53,080 bases of DNA, taken from the NCBI GenBank assembly GCA_021797815.1, contig JAJZYZ010000003.1:1-53080 (forward strand), written 5' to 3'. The stretch comes from Bacillota bacterium. Lineage in GTDB: Bacteria; Bacillota; Sulfobacillia; Sulfobacillales; JAIMBI01. The notes under the pieces were generated by a model. It saw only the letters and a program-made list of their open reading frames with translations, was not told the DNA's origin and ran no database searches. The translations under genes were made by a program, and so were the position numbers. Below are positions 7,356 to 38,683 of the stretch, piece by piece; the first letter of the stretch is position 1; each line of letters opens with the position of its first letter.

Positions 7356-8333
7356 TCAGCCAAGCCCGCCGGCCTGGCGGATGCGGTCTATCGTGACGGC
7401 GGTGGCGGCCGAGGTCTCAAGAGCCGTCAGGCGCGGCGCCTCCTCGCCGCGTGCTACCCGGCCGATATGGGCGATGTGGGCGGCAAACGACGGCAGGCCG
7501 TCTCCCGCCGACACGGTTGTGGTCTCCCCTTCCCGGTCGCGCGTCAGCGTGATCTGGTCGCGATCGCCGGGGTGAAAGGGATTCGTGACCGTGATGGAAC
7601 CGTCGTCGCCGACGATGCGCGTGAACGTATCTGACGGCGCGTTCAAGCTGGCGGAGAAGAGGAGCCGGCCCGTACCGAAGGCCACGGAGCCGGAGACGGT
7701 CTCGTCCACGCCTCCCGCGTGCCGGGTCACCAGGACCGCCGCCGACTCCCCGGCGCCGCCGAAGAGAAGGCTCGCGAAGTGCACCGGATAGCAGCCGACA
7801 TCGTAAAGCGCGCCCCCACCAAGCTCGGGGCGGAGCCGGATGTTTTCGGTGTGCCGCAGCCGGAAGCCAAAGCGCGAGTCGATTTCGCGGATCGTGCCGA
7901 TGGCGCCGTCGCGAACCCAGCCGGACATGGTCGCAAAGTGCGGCCGGAACATGAACACGAACGCTTCCCAGAGGGGGACACCGGTTCGCACGGAGGCCGC
8001 CGTCATCGTCTCCACCTGAGCTGCGTCCAGTCCGAGAGGCTTCTCGCATAAGACGGGCTTTCCCGCCTCCAGCGCTCTTACCGCCCACGCAAGGTGAAGA
8101 CTGTTGGGCAGCGGCACGTAGACCGCCTCCACCCGCGGATCGTCAAGCAAGGCTTCATAGCCTGTGAGCGCGTGGTCTATCTGGTTGTCGGCCGCCCAGG
8201 CGGCCGTGCGCGCTTCATCCCGCCCCGCCACCGCGTAAGGCCTTCCGCCCGCCGCCCGCAGTCCCGGCAAAAAGGACGCCCGGGCGATGTTGGCCGTTCC
8301 GAGGATCCCCCAGCGCACCCCACCCTCCGTCAT
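7356..8333 (-). CDS. Gfo/Idh/MocA-family oxidoreductase
   Basis: A 325-residue protein with an N-terminal Rossmann fold (WGILGTANIARASFLPGL, residues 8-25) and the conserved EKPLGL segment near residue 97, whose lysine is catalytic in this family. The C-terminal alpha/beta domain includes GGGALYDVGCYPVHF, where family members bind substrate. These enzymes oxidise or reduce sugars, polyols or related compounds with NAD(P); dihydrodiol/xylose dehydrogenase-like members share this layout. The ATG overlaps the stop of the upstream hydrolase gene as ATGA, so the two are translationally coupled. The substrate is unknown. Confidence 0.87.
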   Translation of the reverse strand: MTEGGVRWGILGTANIARASFLPGLRAAGGRPYAVAGRDEARTAAWAADNQIDHALTGYEALLDDPRVEAVYVPLPNSLHLAWAVRALEAGKPVLCEKPLGLDAAQVETMTAASVRTGVPLWEAFVFMFRPHFATMSGWVRDGAIGTIREIDSRFGFRLRHTENIRLRPELGGGALYDVGCYPVHFASLLFGGAGESAAVLVTRHAGGVDETVSGSVAFGTGRLLFSASLNAPSDTFTRIVGDDGSITVTNPFHPGDRDQITLTRDREGETTTVSAGDGLPSFAAHIAHIGRVARGEEAPRLTALETSAATAVTIDRIRQAGGLG

Positions 8334-9223
8334 GCCGGCGCCTCCTCTCCCAAAACGTCCGATGCGCCAATGAGGGTAACCAGCGTGCCGATGTGCTCGA
8401 TGGTGACCTCGAGCCGATCGCCCGGCTGAAGCCAGCGGCGCTCGCCGGCGGGCTTTCCGAGAATCACGCCGTCCGGAGTGCCGGTAAAGATGAGGTCCCC
8501 GGGACGCAGGGGGAGAATGTGGGAGAGGTACGCGATGAGGGTGGGCACGTCAAAGACCATCAAATCCGTCGATGAGTGCTGCACGCGTTCACCGTTGCGA
8601 TAAACCGCCAGGTCGAGCCCGGCCGGGTCCGACAGCTCCTCGCGCGTGACGACGACCGGTCCGATGGGGCCAAACCCGGGCAGACTCTTGCCGAGAAGCC
8701 ATTGACTGGTTCGGCTCTGCAAGTCGCGCGCCGAGAGGTCGTTGCCAACGGTGTAGCCGGCCACGTACGAAAGAGCATCGGCGGCGCTCACGTCGCGGGC
8801 CAGCCGCCCCATTACGACCACCAGTTCCCCCTCGTAATCGAGCTGCTCCGTGGCGGCCGGGTGCGGAACCGTCGCGCCTGAAGCCGTGAGCGTGCTCGGA
8901 AACTTATTGAAGACTATCGGAATGGTAGGGACATCGGAGCCCGTTTCGGCCGCATGCGCGCGGTGGTTCCGTCCGATGCACAAGACCTTTTCGGGCCGGA
9001 GAGACGACGGCCGCCAGGCGATGGCATCCTCGTCCACCGGCCGGGCCGCGGCAAAGGCCCGGCGGAGACTGGCCGGCATGTCCGGTCCTCCATCCCACAG
9101 CGCCCAGACATCATCAAGGTCGCCGAGGCGGTGACCCTCTACCTCATCGGCCACCAACCGGTAGCCGTCCGCCCAAATCGCCACCCGATCGGCGCCCCCG
9201 ACGCGTACGTTTGCAAGCCTCAC
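8330..9223 (-). CDS. Fumarylacetoacetate hydrolase-family protein
   Basis: A 297-residue protein. The C-terminal two thirds is a FAH domain: CIGRNHRAHAAE near residue 80, FNKFPSTLTASGATV, the metal ligands in LDYEGELVVVMG (near 130-140), GYTVGNDLSARD, and LRPGDLIFTGTPDGV near residue 250. The N-terminal 70 residues match the small cap domain of this family. Known members hydrolyse or decarboxylate beta-diketo acids or acylpyruvates with Mg2+ in aromatic or sugar acid breakdown. It starts at GTG 9223 with only a weak Shine-Dalgarno. It is coupled to the oxidoreductase downstream, which suggests a short catabolic operon for a sugar acid or ring-cleavage product. Confidence 0.87.
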   Translation of the reverse strand: MRLANVRVGGADRVAIWADGYRLVADEVEGHRLGDLDDVWALWDGGPDMPASLRRAFAAARPVDEDAIAWRPSSLRPEKVLCIGRNHRAHAAETGSDVPTIPIVFNKFPSTLTASGATVPHPAATEQLDYEGELVVVMGRLARDVSAADALSYVAGYTVGNDLSARDLQSRTSQWLLGKSLPGFGPIGPVVVTREELSDPAGLDLAVYRNGERVQHSSTDLMVFDVPTLIAYLSHILPLRPGDLIFTGTPDGVILGKPAGERRWLQPGDRLEVTIEHIGTLVTLIGASDVLGEEAPA

Positions 9224-32515: not shown

Positions 32516-32710
32516 GTGAGTGCTTCCCTCAGGCGCATTCTGAATCGGATGCGTCGGAGACTAAAAGACCGGAGCGGCCAGGCCCTCGTCGAATACGGAC
32601 TCATCCTGATCCTGGTCGCCATCGGAGCGATTGTGGGGCTGGGCTTTTTCGGCCACTCCGTCGGTCACAGCCTCAACAATTCGGGCCACATCCTCAACAA
32701 CCTGCCCTGA
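32516..32710 (+). CDS. Flp-family type IVb pilin
   Basis: A 64-residue prepilin. A basic leader of about 21 residues (with RRILNRMRRRLKDRSG) is followed by QALVEYGLILILVAIGAIVG, the mature N-terminus with Glu at +5 and Tyr at +6 after the predicted prepilin peptidase cut behind Gly. This is the Flp pilin arrangement; the protein is secreted and polymerised into thin adhesive pili. The start is GTG 32516 with AAAGG about 11 bases upstream. No Tad assembly genes (CpaF, TadB/C, prepilin peptidase) are in the window. A GT2 gene follows within 130 bases. Confidence 0.88.
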   Translation: MSASLRRILNRMRRRLKDRSGQALVEYGLILILVAIGAIVGLGFFGHSVGHSLNNSGHILNNLP

Positions 32711-33621: not shown

Positions 33622-33648
33622 TCGCGGTTAGGCGGTTAGGCGATTAGA
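33622..33648. repeat. Short tandem repeat between convergent genes
   Basis: GCGGTTAG-GCGGTTAG-GCGATTAG: three near-identical 8-base units sit in the 31-base gap between the GT2 and TPR/HD-GYP-like genes and overlap the stop of the latter. No hairpin terminator is evident. Confidence 0.6.
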
Positions 33649-35149
33649 AGGTCTCGATGAGGTGTTTGTCGAGGAGGGAGCCGACCGCCAGGCGGAACCG
33701 CTCCCCGCCAGCGGGGTCAAGCTCTCCGCCGCGGCACGCCAGCGCGACCTCCGCCACCGCCGCCGAGTGGGTCTGGCCGCGCGCAAGGGCGCGGGCAAAA
33801 ACGTCCGCCACGCGAAACCACCGGGCCCAGGGGTGTATCGCCGCACCCGATTTTCCCGCCGGAAACCCCTGTCCGTTCCACCACTCATGATGGTCCAGGA
33901 TGGCCGCGCGCACGTCCGGTGAGAGGTCCATGTCTCGAAGGAGCCTGAGGCTCAGCTCGGGGTGCTTCGTGAAGCGGGCCCAGGCCGCGGGCGATCGGTC
34001 GGGCCGACTGGCCACATCCGGTTCCATGGCGCCGAGCCCCACATCCGCCAGCCGACTCACCCACACGAACCCGTCAGGGAAACGATCCTCACTCGAAGGC
34101 GCCCTGCCGCCTGCCTCCCCGTCCATCTCGCCCATCGTCTCCACCGTCTGGATGCGAAGATCGGAAATCAGCGAGGCACCCGGTTCTACCAGGTCCTGTG
34201 CCGCCATGAAGTCAATCAGGGTCAAAAACTCTCGCAACGCGTCTGCCTCGGCCGGCGCCTGTGACGGTGCTCCCGTGTCGAGGGAGCCTGCCCACTCTTC
34301 CATGCGCGTCGAAAGCCCGCGCCACTCTCGCCAGAGACTTGCCTGTCCGTACCGGATGAGGGCCCGCTCCCCCAGCCGACGGGAGAGGTCATGGTCGCCC
34401 AGATGGCGGGCCAGCATGGCCGCCACCTCACAGACGTACCCGAGCTCCACGCCATGAAAGGCAATCCAGGATGTCCAGAAGTGCTGGACTGCCAGCGTGA
34501 CCCAATCCATCCCCCGGGCCGCGTCTCCGACTCGGAACTCAAGCCGCGCCAGCTCCACCAGCACCCTCAGACGGTCGGCGTCATGGGCCCCCTCCAGGGC
34601 GGGCACCAACAGTGCACGGGCCGCGTCCAGTCGTTCCGTCTCGGCCAGGACTATGCCTCGATTCACCGACACGGCTCTCGCCACCGGGCCGCCAGCACCC
34701 CGGAGATGCCGTTCCGCGCGTTCGAGACTCCCTTCGGCCGACGGGAAGTAGTTGAGATTCAGCTGGCACACCGCCAGGTTGATCCAGTACTGGGCCACCA
34801 GCATGTCCGGTGAGGTCCGACAAAGCGGTTCCAGGGCACCCATGCCGCGAAGGGCGAGGTCATAGTGGCCCCGCTGCACTTCCACCATGGCCCGATTCAT
34901 GCCAATGCCAAGGGCCGCCCCCGGCGGGGCGTCCGTCGGCAGCGCTTCCTCCGCCCGCGCAAACCATCGAGCCGCCGTCTCCGGGTCCTCGCGGACCACG
35001 AAGCTCTTGGCCACCAGGTTCGATGAGCGCCAGGCCTGCCTGCCCCGAAACCCGCCGCTGCTCTCCACCAGCTCCCGGGCCGCCTCCGCCCAGCCACGGT
35101 TCAACAGCTCCTGTGCGCGATCGAGGACCTCGCTACCCGGGCGTGTCAT
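33644..35149 (-). CDS. TPR-like protein with degenerate C-terminal HD-GYP domain
   Basis: A 501-residue protein. Residues 1-310 are helical repeats of TPR type (for example ARELVESSGG, WFARAEEALP and SLERAERHLRGAGG). Residues 360-501 resemble an HD-GYP c-di-GMP phosphodiesterase: LADVGLG at 367-373 stands where LHDIGKI is expected (His replaced by Ala368; Asp369 kept; Lys replaced by Leu), then KHPELS near 395, HHEWWNGQGFP at 420-430 in place of HHExxDGxGYP, and VADVFARAL. Loss of the HD histidine suggests no or altered phosphodiesterase activity, so a binding or scaffold role is likely. ATG 35149 overlaps the kinase stop (ATGA). Confidence 0.78.
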   Translation of the reverse strand: MTRPGSEVLDRAQELLNRGWAEAARELVESSGGFRGRQAWRSSNLVAKSFVVREDPETAARWFARAEEALPTDAPPGAALGIGMNRAMVEVQRGHYDLALRGMGALEPLCRTSPDMLVAQYWINLAVCQLNLNYFPSAEGSLERAERHLRGAGGPVARAVSVNRGIVLAETERLDAARALLVPALEGAHDADRLRVLVELARLEFRVGDAARGMDWVTLAVQHFWTSWIAFHGVELGYVCEVAAMLARHLGDHDLSRRLGERALIRYGQASLWREWRGLSTRMEEWAGSLDTGAPSQAPAEADALREFLTLIDFMAAQDLVEPGASLISDLRIQTVETMGEMDGEAGGRAPSSEDRFPDGFVWVSRLADVGLGAMEPDVASRPDRSPAAWARFTKHPELSLRLLRDMDLSPDVRAAILDHHEWWNGQGFPAGKSGAAIHPWARWFRVADVFARALARGQTHSAAVAEVALACRGGELDPAGGERFRLAVGSLLDKHLIETF

Positions 35150-35820
35150 GCGCCGGGATCCCGAGGCCATCGAATGCTGACTACCGACCCGGATCCGGGC
35201 CGGGAACGGATGGCGAGGTCCCCGCCCACCCGCCGCAGGCGTTCACGCATGCCCTGCAGGCCAAAATGGTGCGTCGCGGACTGCTCTTCGGGAAACCCGC
35301 GACCGTCGTCCTCTACCTCGACCGAGAGGGCGTCGGGCGCACATCCCCAGCGGACCAGAATGTGACGCGCACCGGCGTGCTTGACCACGTTCGTGAGCGC
35401 TTCCTGCAAGAGCCGGAAAATCAACACCTGCTGCGCTCCGGAGAGGCTCATGGTGGCCGGCAGGTCGTGGTCGTCAATCTGAACCTCGATGCCGGCCTCC
35501 CGCTCGATGCCCTGGGCCACACTCTCGACCGCGCCCAGAAGCCCCACCTCGTCGATGGCGATGGGCTGGAGGTCAAAGATGAGCTGGCGGATCTCGTTCA
35601 CCGCCTGCACCACCCTCGTTGAGAGCAGGGTGAGTTCCCCCTCTACCGCCTCCGGCTCCGCTGTCAGGAGTCTTCGGGCGATCTCAAGCCGCATCGCCAC
35701 CTGGGTCAGGGTTTGCACCGGGCCGTCATGGAGGTCCCGCCCTATGCGGCGGCGCTCCTCTTCCATCATCATGATGGCGCGGTCGCCCAGGGCCTCGACG
35801 GTGGCCGTCTGCTCCTTCAT
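35146..35820 (-). CDS. Soluble sensor histidine kinase, DegS/NarX type
   Basis: A 224-residue kinase without sensor or membrane segments. EEERRRIGRDLHDGPVQTLTQ near residues 21-40 contains the phospho-accepting His31 of HisKA_3, and the C-terminal HATPase has EALTNVVKHAGA (N box) near 133, VEDDGRGF (G1) near 165 and FGLQGMRERLRRVGG (G2) near 184. Partners of this class are normally NarL-type regulators with DNA-binding output, but the only receiver in the operon is a CheY-like protein without one. GGGGGAG lies just upstream of ATG 35820. The next gene overlaps its stop by four bases. Confidence 0.88.
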   Translation of the reverse strand: MKEQTATVEALGDRAIMMMEEERRRIGRDLHDGPVQTLTQVAMRLEIARRLLTAEPEAVEGELTLLSTRVVQAVNEIRQLIFDLQPIAIDEVGLLGAVESVAQGIEREAGIEVQIDDHDLPATMSLSGAQQVLIFRLLQEALTNVVKHAGARHILVRWGCAPDALSVEVEDDGRGFPEEQSATHHFGLQGMRERLRRVGGDLAIRSRPGSGSVVSIRWPRDPGA

Positions 35821-35863
35821 CGCTCCCCCTTCTCACGGCACCGGCCTTGTGACCGGCGCGCGC

Positions 35864-36067
35864 TCAGTACCAGAGAATCATCCCGCGGCCCAGGCTGTGG
35901 CCCGACCAGGGAGCAGTCGTGGGCCGTTGCCCCGCGGCTGCGGCCATGAGCGTGGCCGTCCCGCTCCCGCTGGCCCCTATGATGGCCTGTCCCCCGGCCG
36001 CGAATCCTGCGGCCGACAGGGCCAGCACGGATATGCCGAGAGCTAGGGCGTTAATCCAGCTGCGCAC
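35864..36067 (-). CDS. Small secreted protein with signal peptide
   Basis: A 67-residue protein. GTG 36065-36067 lies eight bases after a very strong AAAGGAGG site; an earlier GTG overlaps that site. Residues 1-25 (basic start, LALGISVLALSAAGFAAGG) look like a Sec signal peptide or N-terminal membrane anchor. The mature part is short, Gly/Ala/Thr-rich and ends in MILWY. I do not recognise a family. It sits inside the c-di-GMP-riboswitch operon (32 bases after the FapA-like gene, 44 before the kinase), so it may be an exported signal or surface component. Confidence 0.65.
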   Translation of the reverse strand: MRSWINALALGISVLALSAAGFAAGGQAIIGASGSGTATLMAAAAGQRPTTAPWSGHSLGRGMILWY

Positions 36068-36098
36068 GTATCTCACCTCCTTTCAGTGGGTCCATGTG

Positions 36099-37928
36099 TC
36101 AGCCCTGGAGCTCTGCGACCCCGGACGCGGGCCGCGGGGCATCGTCTGCAGGAGCCATGTCCACATCCATGTCGTGGCGCACCACCACGCGGACGGCGTC
36201 CCCATCGATGCGGCGCGAGTGGTCGTGCACCCGCAGCACGGTGTTGGCCGAAAGCTTCTCCGCGCGGATTTCGCCCATGGGGTCGTGGACCCGCACGGTG
36301 GTCTCAATGCCCGTGTGGTGACCGATCTGGCGAGCCTGCACGCTGTGGCCGGCGATGGTGAAGCCGCCAATGAGCGATCCGCTTACCGCGATGCGGTCGC
36401 CCGCCTCCAGCGTGGATGCAAAGGCGCTCTGCACGGTTACGTCTCCGGTGGCCCGCACGAGCGATGTGTCCACGTGCCCCAGCACCGCGATGCCGGGCAC
36501 CAGACCGGGAAGCGCCCAGAAAGCCTCGCCCACGTCGTGCCAGGGATTTTGGAGGAAGTCCACCAGCAGATCGAGCGGTCCCAGCGACGGGAGACTTTGC
36601 AGGTAAGTCAGATCCGTCACCCGCTCCAGCTCCCGCAGCACGTCCCAGGCCGCCGGACTCAAGAGCAGGGTCGGATGCTCCAGCATGGAGCCGATCCAGG
36701 TCCTGTCCGCCTCCCAGTTCGGGTAGTGCTGCTGCACGAGCCGCACCACCAGGCGGCCGGGCTGCAGGCGCGCTGACAGGGGTGAGCGTCGGCCGGCCTC
36801 GCGGACGGTGCTCGCAATCTCGGACAAGGCCATGCCCCAACGCTGAAACCCTTCTTGGGCCTCTCGCGTGAGAACATCGTCAAGACCGGCTATGAGTGTG
36901 GTCCGTACAACGTCCCCCGTCATCTCCACACCATGTCCCGACACCACCAGCGCATCGGTGAGAGACCCCTCGACCACCACGCGGCCCTCGGCCACGATGC
37001 GCGCGTTCGCGAAGTCGCCGCGCAGGATCGCGTCGCCGCGAACATGCACCGGGTCGTCGGCGCCCGTCAGGTCATCCGGTGTCAGAACATGCTCCGGCAC
37101 CACACACAGGTAGTCTCCCCGGTAAAAGAACCGGCCCGCCCTGGAGGCGATGAGCTCACCCGGCTCCGGGCCGGGCTCGATGGCGCCAAGGGTTCGGAGC
37201 CTTGACGCCTCGGATTCCGCGGGGATGGTATCACCGAATACATTGACGCCGCCACGGGCCGACACGGCGGGCACGATGCGCCCTAGCCGCTGACCGGCCT
37301 CCACGCGTCCGGCCCCTGAGTCATTCGTGGTCCCATCCAGACTTGCGTCTGCGGACTCGAAGCGGGCGGCAATCGGCGGCACCGGCGTCTGCCCCTCCGC
37401 CACGAGCATCTGGCCGGTCTCGCATCGATCCAAGAAGGCGCGGATGTCTGCCAGGGAGACAAGGCCGAACCGGATGCCGAGGCGCTTCAGTTCTTGCAGC
37501 ACCAGGGCCACGGAGATGGGTGCGGGGGTCGTCGACTCGGCCTCCGTCGTGATGGTGAGCCGCGGACTCGGATCCGTCTCCCTGATCCGAACTCTGAGGC
37601 CCGGCTCATAAACGGCCACCAGATCGGCACGGAGCCCATCGTCAGACGTGTAGATGTCAAAGGCCGCCCGAGGCGGCACTCCTTCGGCCCGCACGGTCAC
37701 GAACTCCGACTCGGAGACGGTGACCTCGCCTTTCTTCTCTTTACCATTAACGAATATACGCACACGGCCGTCGGCTTCCGGGTCCACCCGGAGCGTTGCC
37801 GTGCCCTTCGGATAGCCGGCAGCGGCTCGCACGGTCAGCTGACCCTGGTCATCGACGCGGGCCGTGGCAGGCCGTCCCGTCATCTCGAGGCTCTCCTCTC
37901 GTGGGGGGGACCACGATGCATCGGCCAT
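36099..37928 (-). CDS. FapA/DUF342 family polymer-forming protein
   Basis: A 609-residue protein. The middle (residues 190-370) contains the FapA core: VEAGQRLGRIVPAVSARGGVNVFGDTIPA near 225-255, followed by beta-helix-type repeats (DPVHVRGDAILRGDFANARI, VVVEGSLTDALVVSGHGVEM). A helical region (about 390-490) interrupts the repeats, which resume near 500 (GIAVLGHVDTSLVRATGDV, VQSAFASTLEAGDRIAVSGS). N-terminal residues 20-110 form two small beta-rich domains. DUF342 proteins are linked to flagellar assembly or sporulation surface in other bacteria, but their activity is unclear. ATG 37926-37928 has GGAGG seven bases upstream and overlaps the receiver's stop by one base. Confidence 0.83.
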   Translation of the reverse strand: MADASWSPPREESLEMTGRPATARVDDQGQLTVRAAAGYPKGTATLRVDPEADGRVRIFVNGKEKKGEVTVSESEFVTVRAEGVPPRAAFDIYTSDDGLRADLVAVYEPGLRVRIRETDPSPRLTITTEAESTTPAPISVALVLQELKRLGIRFGLVSLADIRAFLDRCETGQMLVAEGQTPVPPIAARFESADASLDGTTNDSGAGRVEAGQRLGRIVPAVSARGGVNVFGDTIPAESEASRLRTLGAIEPGPEPGELIASRAGRFFYRGDYLCVVPEHVLTPDDLTGADDPVHVRGDAILRGDFANARIVAEGRVVVEGSLTDALVVSGHGVEMTGDVVRTTLIAGLDDVLTREAQEGFQRWGMALSEIASTVREAGRRSPLSARLQPGRLVVRLVQQHYPNWEADRTWIGSMLEHPTLLLSPAAWDVLRELERVTDLTYLQSLPSLGPLDLLVDFLQNPWHDVGEAFWALPGLVPGIAVLGHVDTSLVRATGDVTVQSAFASTLEAGDRIAVSGSLIGGFTIAGHSVQARQIGHHTGIETTVRVHDPMGEIRAEKLSANTVLRVHDHSRRIDGDAVRVVVRHDMDVDMAPADDAPRPASGVAELQG

Positions 37929-38371
37929 CAGTTGTCCTCCTCTAGGAGCCATGAAATGAGCTCGTCACCGGCCAGCACCCGGTCTGGTCGGATCTGAGCG
38001 TGCACCATGCTCATCAGCGCTCCCACCTGCGCGAGGCTGACCGGCTTGCCCAAAAAGGCCTGAATGCCTGCCCGGCCGGCGCGGTCGCGCACCAGCGGAT
38101 GGTCAAGCACCGTGATCATGGCGAGAAATACATCGGGATTGTTCCGGCGAATCTCCTCGGCGGCGGCGATCCCGTCCATGCCGGGCAGCTGATAGTCGAG
38201 AACGATGACGTCGGCCGGGGCCAACGCTTCGAGCGCGCTCTCGGCACTCCCGTAGGAGGCAACGATGCGCCCGCCGGCAAAGGCGACCAGGCGGCCCAGC
38301 GCCTCGCGCGTTGCCTGCGAGTCGTCAATCAGGACCGTGCGCACCTCAAGGGACGGCTCGGGCATAGTCAT
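37928..38371 (-). CDS. CheY-like response regulator receiver protein
   Basis: A 147-residue single receiver domain. Asp16/Asp17 (LIDDSQATRE) bind Mg2+, Asp59 (VIVLDYQLPGMDG) is the phosphorylation site, Thr87 (MITVLDH) and Lys109 (AFLGKPV) are the switch residues; all essential positions are present. A 25-residue tail (RPDRVLAGDELISWLLEEDN) has no DNA-binding domain. It presumably takes phosphate from the kinase in the same operon and acts on a protein partner, for example the FapA-like or HD-GYP-like product. ATG 38371 has GGAGG nine bases upstream, and a short leader ORF overlaps it as ATGA. Confidence 0.9.
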   Translation of the reverse strand: MTMPEPSLEVRTVLIDDSQATREALGRLVAFAGGRIVASYGSAESALEALAPADVIVLDYQLPGMDGIAAAEEIRRNNPDVFLAMITVLDHPLVRDRAGRAGIQAFLGKPVSLAQVGALMSMVHAQIRPDRVLAGDELISWLLEEDN

Positions 38372-38481
38372 GCGCCGTCACCTCCAGGGGGAAAGGCAGC
38401 GCACGTTCGGGCGGTGGCATCACCCGTCATATTTGCCGGCTTTGGCGGCGATACCGCGACGGGTGTGCATATGAGGTCCAT
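38368..38481 (-). CDS. Possible 37-residue leader ORF between riboswitch and receiver gene
   Basis: An ATG at 38479-38481, with GGAGG ten bases upstream, opens a frame of 37 codons whose TGA overlaps the receiver's ATG (ATGA). Its start codon lies inside one arm of an 8-bp inverted repeat whose other arm directly follows the aptamer. The peptide is Pro/Ala-rich with two cysteines and no family. It may serve for translational coupling rather than make a functional peptide. Confidence 0.35.
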   Translation of the reverse strand: MDLICTPVAVSPPKPANMTGDATARTCAAFPPGGDGA

Positions 38482-38533
38482 GAGCCAAGCGCCTCCGTGC
38501 ATTCCCGACGGTCAGACGCTGGTGTGCTCATGG
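38478..38533 (-). promoter_or_regulatory. Predicted expression-platform hairpin
   Basis: On the minus strand CCATGAGC (38526-38533) and GCTCATGG (38478-38485) are exact complements. The downstream arm contains the leader ORF's ATG; the upstream arm begins a few bases after the aptamer P1. Formation could be exclusive with the ligand-bound fold. No U-tract is present, so translational control is more likely than termination. Confidence 0.4.
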
Positions 38534-38536
38534 CAC

Positions 38537-38624
38537 TCCTGGCAGCCCGGCGGCCTTGGGGCTCTCACCCGTTAGGTCCGTAGCTTTGCGTCCTCGACTT
38601 TCGTCGAGTTTGCCCGTGCAGGAT
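38537..38624 (-). ncRNA. c-di-GMP-I (GEMM-I) riboswitch aptamer
   Basis: The minus-strand RNA has all main GEMM-I elements in order: P1 5' arm ATCCTG, the GGGCAAAC junction, P2 stem CTCGAC-GAAA-GTCGAG with the GAAA tetraloop that docks into P3, the invariant GGACGCAAAGC, CCTAA (tetraloop receptor side), GCCGGGCTGCC of P3, and the P1 3' arm CAGGA. The class binds cyclic di-GMP and controls motility, pili and biofilm genes. It lies about 165 bases upstream of a receiver/FapA/kinase/HD-GYP-like operon. Identification is from conserved sequence and pairing; the on/off direction is not determinable. Confidence 0.93.
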
Positions 38625-38654
38625 ATTGAAATCGAGGCCGGAGCCTCCGCGTTT

Positions 38655-38683
38655 ACTTTACGACGTCAATCCGGAAATGTCGA
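38655..38683 (-). promoter_or_regulatory. Promoter of the riboswitch operon
   Basis: On the minus strand TCGACA (38678-38683), 17 bases, then TAAAGT (38655-38660): 5/6 and 4/6 matches. Transcription would begin about 24 bases before the aptamer, as expected for a riboswitch leader. Confidence 0.55.

Follow-up and report, generated by a model that had tools for sequence, protein, structure and literature searches.

A c-di-GMP-I riboswitch precedes a putative peptide and tetratricopeptide repeat signalling cassette in Sulfobacillales

Most studies treat the second messenger cyclic di-GMP (c-di-GMP) and peptide quorum sensing as two distinct circuits, which converge far downstream. In C. difficile, the cmrRST two-component system is encoded behind a c-di-GMP riboswitch (PMC8844915). 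RRNPP (or RRNPPA) systems such as Rap-Phr, NprR-NprX and PlcR-PapR combine a small secreted-type peptide with a tetratricopeptide repeat (TPR) protein (PMC10075063). Here we describe a locus on a 53,080-nucleotide stretch of a Bacillota genome from the order Sulfobacillales (assembly GCA_021797815.1, contig JAJZYZ010000003.1, positions 1 to 53,080; hereafter the window), in which the genes for a putative peptide and its receptor stand directly under a c-di-GMP riboswitch. With confidence somewhat short of even, we read the locus as an RRNPP-like peptide/TPR signalling pair that is coupled to a two-component output, with c-di-GMP as its gate. Peptide quorum sensing in the fuller sense, with one c-di-GMP-I riboswitch over both a secreted pheromone and a TPR/dead-HD-GYP receptor that is the sensory subunit of a soluble kinase, is a possibility that we put forward only tentatively. 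If true, c-di-GMP would decide whether a cell both sends and listens.

The features of the locus are listed here in the direction of transcription; G001 is a second genome of the same genus.

38655-38683, minus strand: sigma70-like promoter candidate TCGACA-17-TAAAGT (pattern match; block conserved in G001)
38538-38624, minus strand: c-di-GMP-I (GEMM-I) aptamer (Rfam RF01051, 75.8 bits, E 3.5e-13)
38478-38533, minus strand: long compound hairpin, CCAUGAGC...GCUCAUGG, without a U tract (conserved in G001; forms in every state tested)
37928-38371, minus strand: single-domain CheY-like receiver (PF00072, E 1.2e-16; phospho-acceptor residues kept)
36099-37928, minus strand: FapA/DUF342 protein (FapA_N E 1.7e-10, FapA E 7.8e-8, both above the Pfam cut-off)
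35864-36067, minus strand: small secreted-type peptide, 67 aa, GTG start (operon slot of the Sulfobacillales peptide family; Shine-Dalgarno (SD) sequence AAAGGAGG)
35835-35863, minus strand: hairpin between the peptide and kinase genes (-20.8 kcal/mol, z -1.97)
35146-35820, minus strand: sensor-less soluble DegS/NarX-type histidine kinase (HisKA_3 and HATPase_c; alignment)
33644-35149, minus strand: TPR protein with a C-terminal degenerate HD-GYP domain (TPR/HD protein; HD_5 E 2.3e-13, TPR_12 E 4.8e-6)

The Rfam covariance model bears out the original prediction of a c-di-GMP-I aptamer. The match spans the full model (positions 1-87), lies far above the gathering score of 35 and is the only RF01051 match in the 2.9 Mb genome. 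Position 20 (Vc2 numbering) sets the ligand, G standing for c-di-GMP and A occurring in cGAMP-binding variants (PMC6274999); in the window it is G, as for c-di-GMP, and every core residue is intact. Judged by its sequence, the element is a genuine c-di-GMP-I aptamer, and c-di-GMP is its predicted ligand. The same genome has six GGDEF matches, two EAL matches and one PilZ match. Three of the GGDEF matches, on contigs C72, C20 and C12 (L034, L035, L036), resemble copies of one repeated gene, and two of these three lie in open frames of 1219 aa. The predicted promoter of the operon's own is carried by a single sigma70-like match where 0.4 are expected by chance, a weak indication. Just 3' of the aptamer, the window and G001 differ by one change in ~75 nt, which preserves the pair (A-U to G-U), and the compound hairpin found there is probably the expression platform of the aptamer; the leader may also act on translation. 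A short open reading frame (ORF) directly behind the aptamer (SD AGGAG, ATG at 38531) was dropped as a gene because its changes between the two species lack a synonymous bias (synonymous divergence, dS, 0.17; nonsynonymous divergence, dN, 0.13) and the frame is lost between them.

The five closely spaced genes behind the aptamer are likewise confirmed as real and subject to purifying selection. Pfam matches identify the receiver, FapA, kinase and TPR/HD genes, and G001 (L039) has the same set of five behind the same aptamer. The receiver/FapA and kinase/TPR-HD junctions overlap as TGATG and ATGA, respectively, and the receiver has a dN/dS of 0.02 against G001 at a dS of 1.25. On refinement, the most likely starts are 37928 for FapA, GTG 36067 for the peptide, which is 67 aa long, and 35149 for the TPR/HD protein, which is 501 aa long. 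FapA carries a FapA_N and a beta-solenoid domain (Pfam).

The cassette recurs across the order. We sampled 42 Sulfobacillales genomes of ~3.5 Mb each, which together contain ~65 c-di-GMP-I riboswitches, and a TPR/HD profile found ~20 long homologues in 17 of them; the phylum sample outside the order gave one homologue (G273). The gene order receiver, FapA, peptide, kinase, TPR/HD is repeated in L061, L062, L064, L066 and L067, and in L070 and L071 the contig terminates in or near the last cassette gene. At 11 loci the cassette is accompanied by a c-di-GMP-I riboswitch, confirmed by Rfam in all cases, in one of three positions. It stands before the receiver in the window and in L039 of the same genus, and directly before the peptide gene in L044, L052, L055, L056, L058 and L059, where the gene preceding it is FapA (L044) or the receiver (L055, L056, L058). 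The third position is before an EAL gene (L061, L070) or a second kinase gene (L071); in L061 and L070 the receiver, FapA, peptide and kinase come after this EAL gene. Since only ~65 riboswitches are spread over 42 genomes of this size, the 11 placements are beyond chance. Together with the EAL genes beside or inside the cassette in L061, L062, L064 and L065, they uphold the proposed link of the operon to c-di-GMP in relatives. In G273 (L094) a kinase-TPR/HD pair occurs with neither peptide nor riboswitch, and so this pairing is able to occur alone. L061, L070, L071 and L077 have a terminator whose 5' arm complements the P1 3' strand GGGUUGCC over 8 bp, from which we read an OFF-type terminator layout.

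A reduced form of the locus occurs outside the order. The peptide profile also matched in G525, G504 and G048, and in G485 once those three were added. The four loci concerned (L104, L105, L106, L118) belong to two other families of the class, and in each the riboswitch, the TPR gene and the peptide gene follow one another directly. Their aptamers score 71.5, 71.4, 71.1 and 64.4 bits as c-di-GMP-I, and their peptides match a profile trained on the order's core peptides alone with E values of 4e-17, 2e-14, 1e-8 and 3e-6 (similar for the mature parts alone), whereas small random ORFs, which served as the control, were not recognised by it. Their TPR proteins (431-460 aa in L104-L106) align with the TPR/HD family over the full length (hhalign probability 97.6, E 2.6e-12, 418 columns), the HD-like half being eroded further while peptide and TPR are retained. 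Given the gene adjacency, the peptide profile matches and the full-length TPR match, riboswitch, TPR protein and secreted peptide are the common core of the loci inside and outside the order. FapA, a STAS protein and a GGDEF/EAL protein lie downstream in L106 and L118 (in L118 as read from the sequence); no FapA match was found at the riboswitch-TPR-peptide unit of L104 or L105. The original prediction pointed out that a diguanylate cyclase is missing; the lack of a c-di-GMP enzyme is not general, as the operon contains an EAL gene in L061/L070 and a GGDEF/EAL gene in L106 and L118. Behind the L104 and L105 aptamers (2446-2533 and 8312-8399 of these loci) there is a U tract, and AUCGCC...GGCGA could form an aptamer-excluding terminator; this could be an ON-type layout, opposite to that of L061.

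The peptide, which had been taken for an accessory, is instead a core part of the cassette, always preceded by FapA (or the riboswitch) and followed by the kinase; in other families its homologues adjoin TPR genes that follow c-di-GMP-I riboswitches. Relatives of the 67-aa window peptide are 44-71 aa long, all have a signal-like N terminus, and most end in a C-terminal Trp-Asp; the window peptide ends in ...GRGMILWY. Pairwise dN/dS values of 0.04-0.36 identify it as a real gene, with the window peptide at 0.36 against G001 (moderate constraint). A profile search of the order returned 18 genes at E < 1e-5, all adjoining kinase-TPR/HD genes. The profile of core peptides recognises the 44-aa peptides of g5 and g8 weakly with the signal part (E 0.003-0.013) and not significantly without it. 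Equivalents of the hairpin between peptide and kinase were seen in L055, L066, L067 and L071. Between L055 (1635-1766) and L056 (1340-1471) the peptide gene has a dS of 0.03, compared with 0.63-0.68 for the next two genes, and these near-frozen synonymous sites suggest an RNA-level constraint over the gene.

The TPR/HD protein is modelled with a predicted local distance difference test (pLDDT) score of 87.5. The TPR_12 match is below its cut-off; the TPR superhelix model is confident. Residues 1-290 match TPR superhelices, including several that bind extended peptides; the nearest structures include those of Rap-pheromone and NprR-NprX complexes (Z 22-24, 282-286 residues, 3.5-5 A). The less sure model of the L105 TPR protein (pLDDT 68.9) gives a similar structure list, with LGN first. 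All B. subtilis Rap proteins share an Asn that, in Rap, binds the main chain of the pheromone (PMC3601965). Groove-type Asn residues are present here as well, at equivalent places of successive A helices: N124 and N163 are invariant in 18 of 18 TPR/HD sequences, and a third is found in 12. In the HD-GYP-like domain, the HHE and GFP motifs are invariant, but the HD..GK stretch reads RLxDxGL in 18 of 18 sequences, so that no member retains the HD histidine or the GK lysine. The kinase lacks sensor and membrane parts. In the window, and at most of the loci examined for this, the kinase and TPR/HD genes overlap; on these grounds, we infer that the TPR/HD protein is the sensory subunit of the kinase.

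In the mechanism that we favour, the aptamer would sense c-di-GMP and set the transcript level of a signalling cassette made up of a secreted peptide and its readers, namely the TPR protein, the soluble kinase and the single-domain receiver; FapA may serve as a scaffold. The peptide would be exported, possibly trimmed, and re-imported by an Opp-type importer, a system whose binding-protein family has 13 matches in the window's genome. It could then bind the Asn-lined TPR groove, a groove type that accommodates extended peptides. The TPR/pseudo-HD-GYP protein, with which the kinase would be translated in coupling, would act as its sensory subunit and alter receiver phosphorylation, so that c-di-GMP determines whether the cell takes part. 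Underlying this are a riboswitch, a gene set, its conservation and purifying selection, co-occurrence, overlapping genes and a degenerate catalytic motif, all of them observed; we infer the binding of peptide to TPR protein, the TPR-kinase complex, the import and, for the window genome, the sign of control.

Several results weigh against this reading. The window peptide reaches only E 0.78 against a profile of the core peptides, within the range of random ORFs, and its high scores in the other profile searches stem from its own presence in the alignments. Its link to the family is one of position, size and selection and not of recognisable sequence similarity, the ties being its slot, size class, strong SD, C-terminal Trp and constraint. 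The eukaryotic TPR proteins LGN and TSK tie with the Rap-like structures as matches, and a Rap-specific structural match was dropped as indistinguishable from other TPR proteins. In the window leader, a search for a terminator gave no convincing stem with a U tract, and folding with and without the enforced aptamer left the ribosome site of the receiver paired in both modelled states. Cassettes without a riboswitch occur in L062, L064, L065 and L067, the first three with an adjoining EAL gene. Position 20 of the peptide-proximal aptamers, those of the g5 and g8 relatives included, is A in L055 (1511-1604), L056 and L058, U in L044 and L059, and C in L052, so that these six relatives may have a different ligand; ligand change or decay of aptamers without G20 is possible. 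The kinase gene also parts the peptide gene from the TPR gene in the window, where RRNPP pairs are direct neighbours. As a side observation, the L053 and L077 aptamers likewise have A at position 20.

It is rather unlikely that the peptide is instead secreted as a structural or surface component, such as one of the biofilm matrix, in a dose set by c-di-GMP, while the two-component system monitors something else and no peptide signalling takes place. This account draws on the strong SD before the peptide and the hairpins behind it, which suggest high output relative to the kinase, on other c-di-GMP-I riboswitches of the order that stand ahead of large secreted proteins, of which one has a TIG domain, and on mature peptide parts of up to ~45 aa, exceeding known RRNPP pheromones. 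However, wherever the peptide occurs the TPR protein goes with it, the pair being directly behind the riboswitch in four loci, and the cassette conserves nothing else for matrix export. The original prediction of a c-di-GMP effector module would have the degenerate HD-GYP domain bind c-di-GMP and steer kinase and receiver, with the peptide as an accessory. We consider this doubtful. Keeping HHE and GFP while losing the HD histidine and GK lysine is a pattern that fits a binder over an enzyme, EAL and GGDEF genes are nearby, and the Foldseek matches of the domain include PA4781 and DvhD, a c-di-GMP-bound HD-GYP protein. Yet metal-ligand loss in all members does not demonstrate ligand binding, which leaves the module unsupported, and the HD-like half is the part that erodes in L104, L105, L106 and L118 with peptide and TPR still there.

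Two further accounts are highly improbable. In one, FapA is the centre of a flagellar or polarity switch, by which c-di-GMP turns off flagellar assembly via FapA and the two-component genes. The Pfam name of FapA and the presence of flagellin in 38 of the 42 order genomes speak for it, but the flagellin search of these genomes found none in the window genome (G000), its sister G001 or G020, all of which carry cassette genes, and L104 and L105 have the riboswitch-TPR-peptide unit without a FapA match. Given the missing flagellin, the cassette does not serve flagella in the window organism, and a flagellar role of FapA was rejected. In the other, the aptamer is real but a relic in a rearranged leader and has ceased to control the operon of this lineage. 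This would agree with the missing terminator and with the search for a P1-competing segment, which found none of more than 6 bp common to the window and G001. Against decay, all core residues are intact, and the two species have nearly the same sequence in the aptamer and the next 75 nt despite the divergence of the receiver.

Some neighbouring genes and other riboswitches were recorded alongside. Convergent with the operon, a small Flp/Fap pilin-like ORF (32516-32710, plus strand; PF04964 E 4e-4, below cut-off) is conserved in G001. PADLOC gave no defence-system match, and a defence reading was dropped. An EAL gene upstream of the peptide gene in L065 (4203-5195) contains a tract of ~20 G, a possible phase-variable site, and an HNH nuclease-like gene with some IscB similarity lies behind the TPR/HD gene in L044 (4309-5064) and L052 (4650-5255). 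Elsewhere in the order, many c-di-GMP-I riboswitches stand before secreted-type proteins of ~660-930 aa (L038, L043, L045, L047, L050, L057, L074, L075), most of which share an NVFSYDSQ-like conserved region; a TIG domain occurs in L045.

The locus suggests that c-di-GMP gates a previously undescribed cell-to-cell peptide signal in these bacteria. For the several Bacillota families that have such loci, no peptide signalling of this kind is described in the literature searched. Searches of open-access full texts turned up no c-di-GMP riboswitch on a peptide/TPR pair, although the supplementary tables of the RRNPP survey may list some of these pairs without a name. As the peptides are short and synthesisable, they allow a direct test of the idea, and their family offers a handle for finding further such systems.

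Compared with the Vc2 and Cd1 c-di-GMP-I riboswitches, the window likewise has a full aptamer with G20. In L061, L070, L071 and L077, the P1 3' strand pairs over 8 bp with the terminator arm, which is the layout of the OFF switch Cd1 (PMC9262584); unlike in Vc2 and Cd1, the platform in the window is a long hairpin without a U tract, and the controlled genes form a peptide/TPR/kinase cassette. A riboswitch on two-component genes, considered unusual in the original prediction, has a precedent in CmrRST, where a c-di-GMP riboswitch is also upstream of kinase and response-regulator genes (PMC8844915). There, two OmpR-family regulators take the place of the bare receiver, and no secreted peptide, TPR protein or FapA is described. 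The C-terminal domain resembles the HD-GYP phosphodiesterases PmGH (4mcw) and PA4781 (4r8z) in fold, by sequence and by structure match, and differs in the two residues missing throughout the TPR/HD family.

The likeness to RRNPP systems lies in the small secreted-type peptide and the size of the TPR protein (~430-500 aa), as well as in the Asn-lined groove, the link to a two-component output and the gene adjacency in L104, L105, L106 and L118. We judged membership by five published criteria (PMC10075063). The 67-aa peptide falls within the propeptide length of 10-100 aa, and the TPR protein, at 501 aa, is borderline for a receptor of ~250-500 aa with TPRs. RRNPP propeptides are secreted by SEC, a route for which the signal-like N terminus makes the peptides here candidates. 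Peptide and receptor genes are direct neighbours in the four loci outside the order and are separated by the kinase gene within it. RRNPP receptors have an N-terminal effector domain followed by TPRs; the window protein has its TPRs first and the degenerate HD-GYP domain C-terminal, and its operon is under a riboswitch. Because of the intervening kinase gene and the reversed domain order, the window system is not an RRNPP member by the published criteria, although it may work in an RRNPP-like manner.

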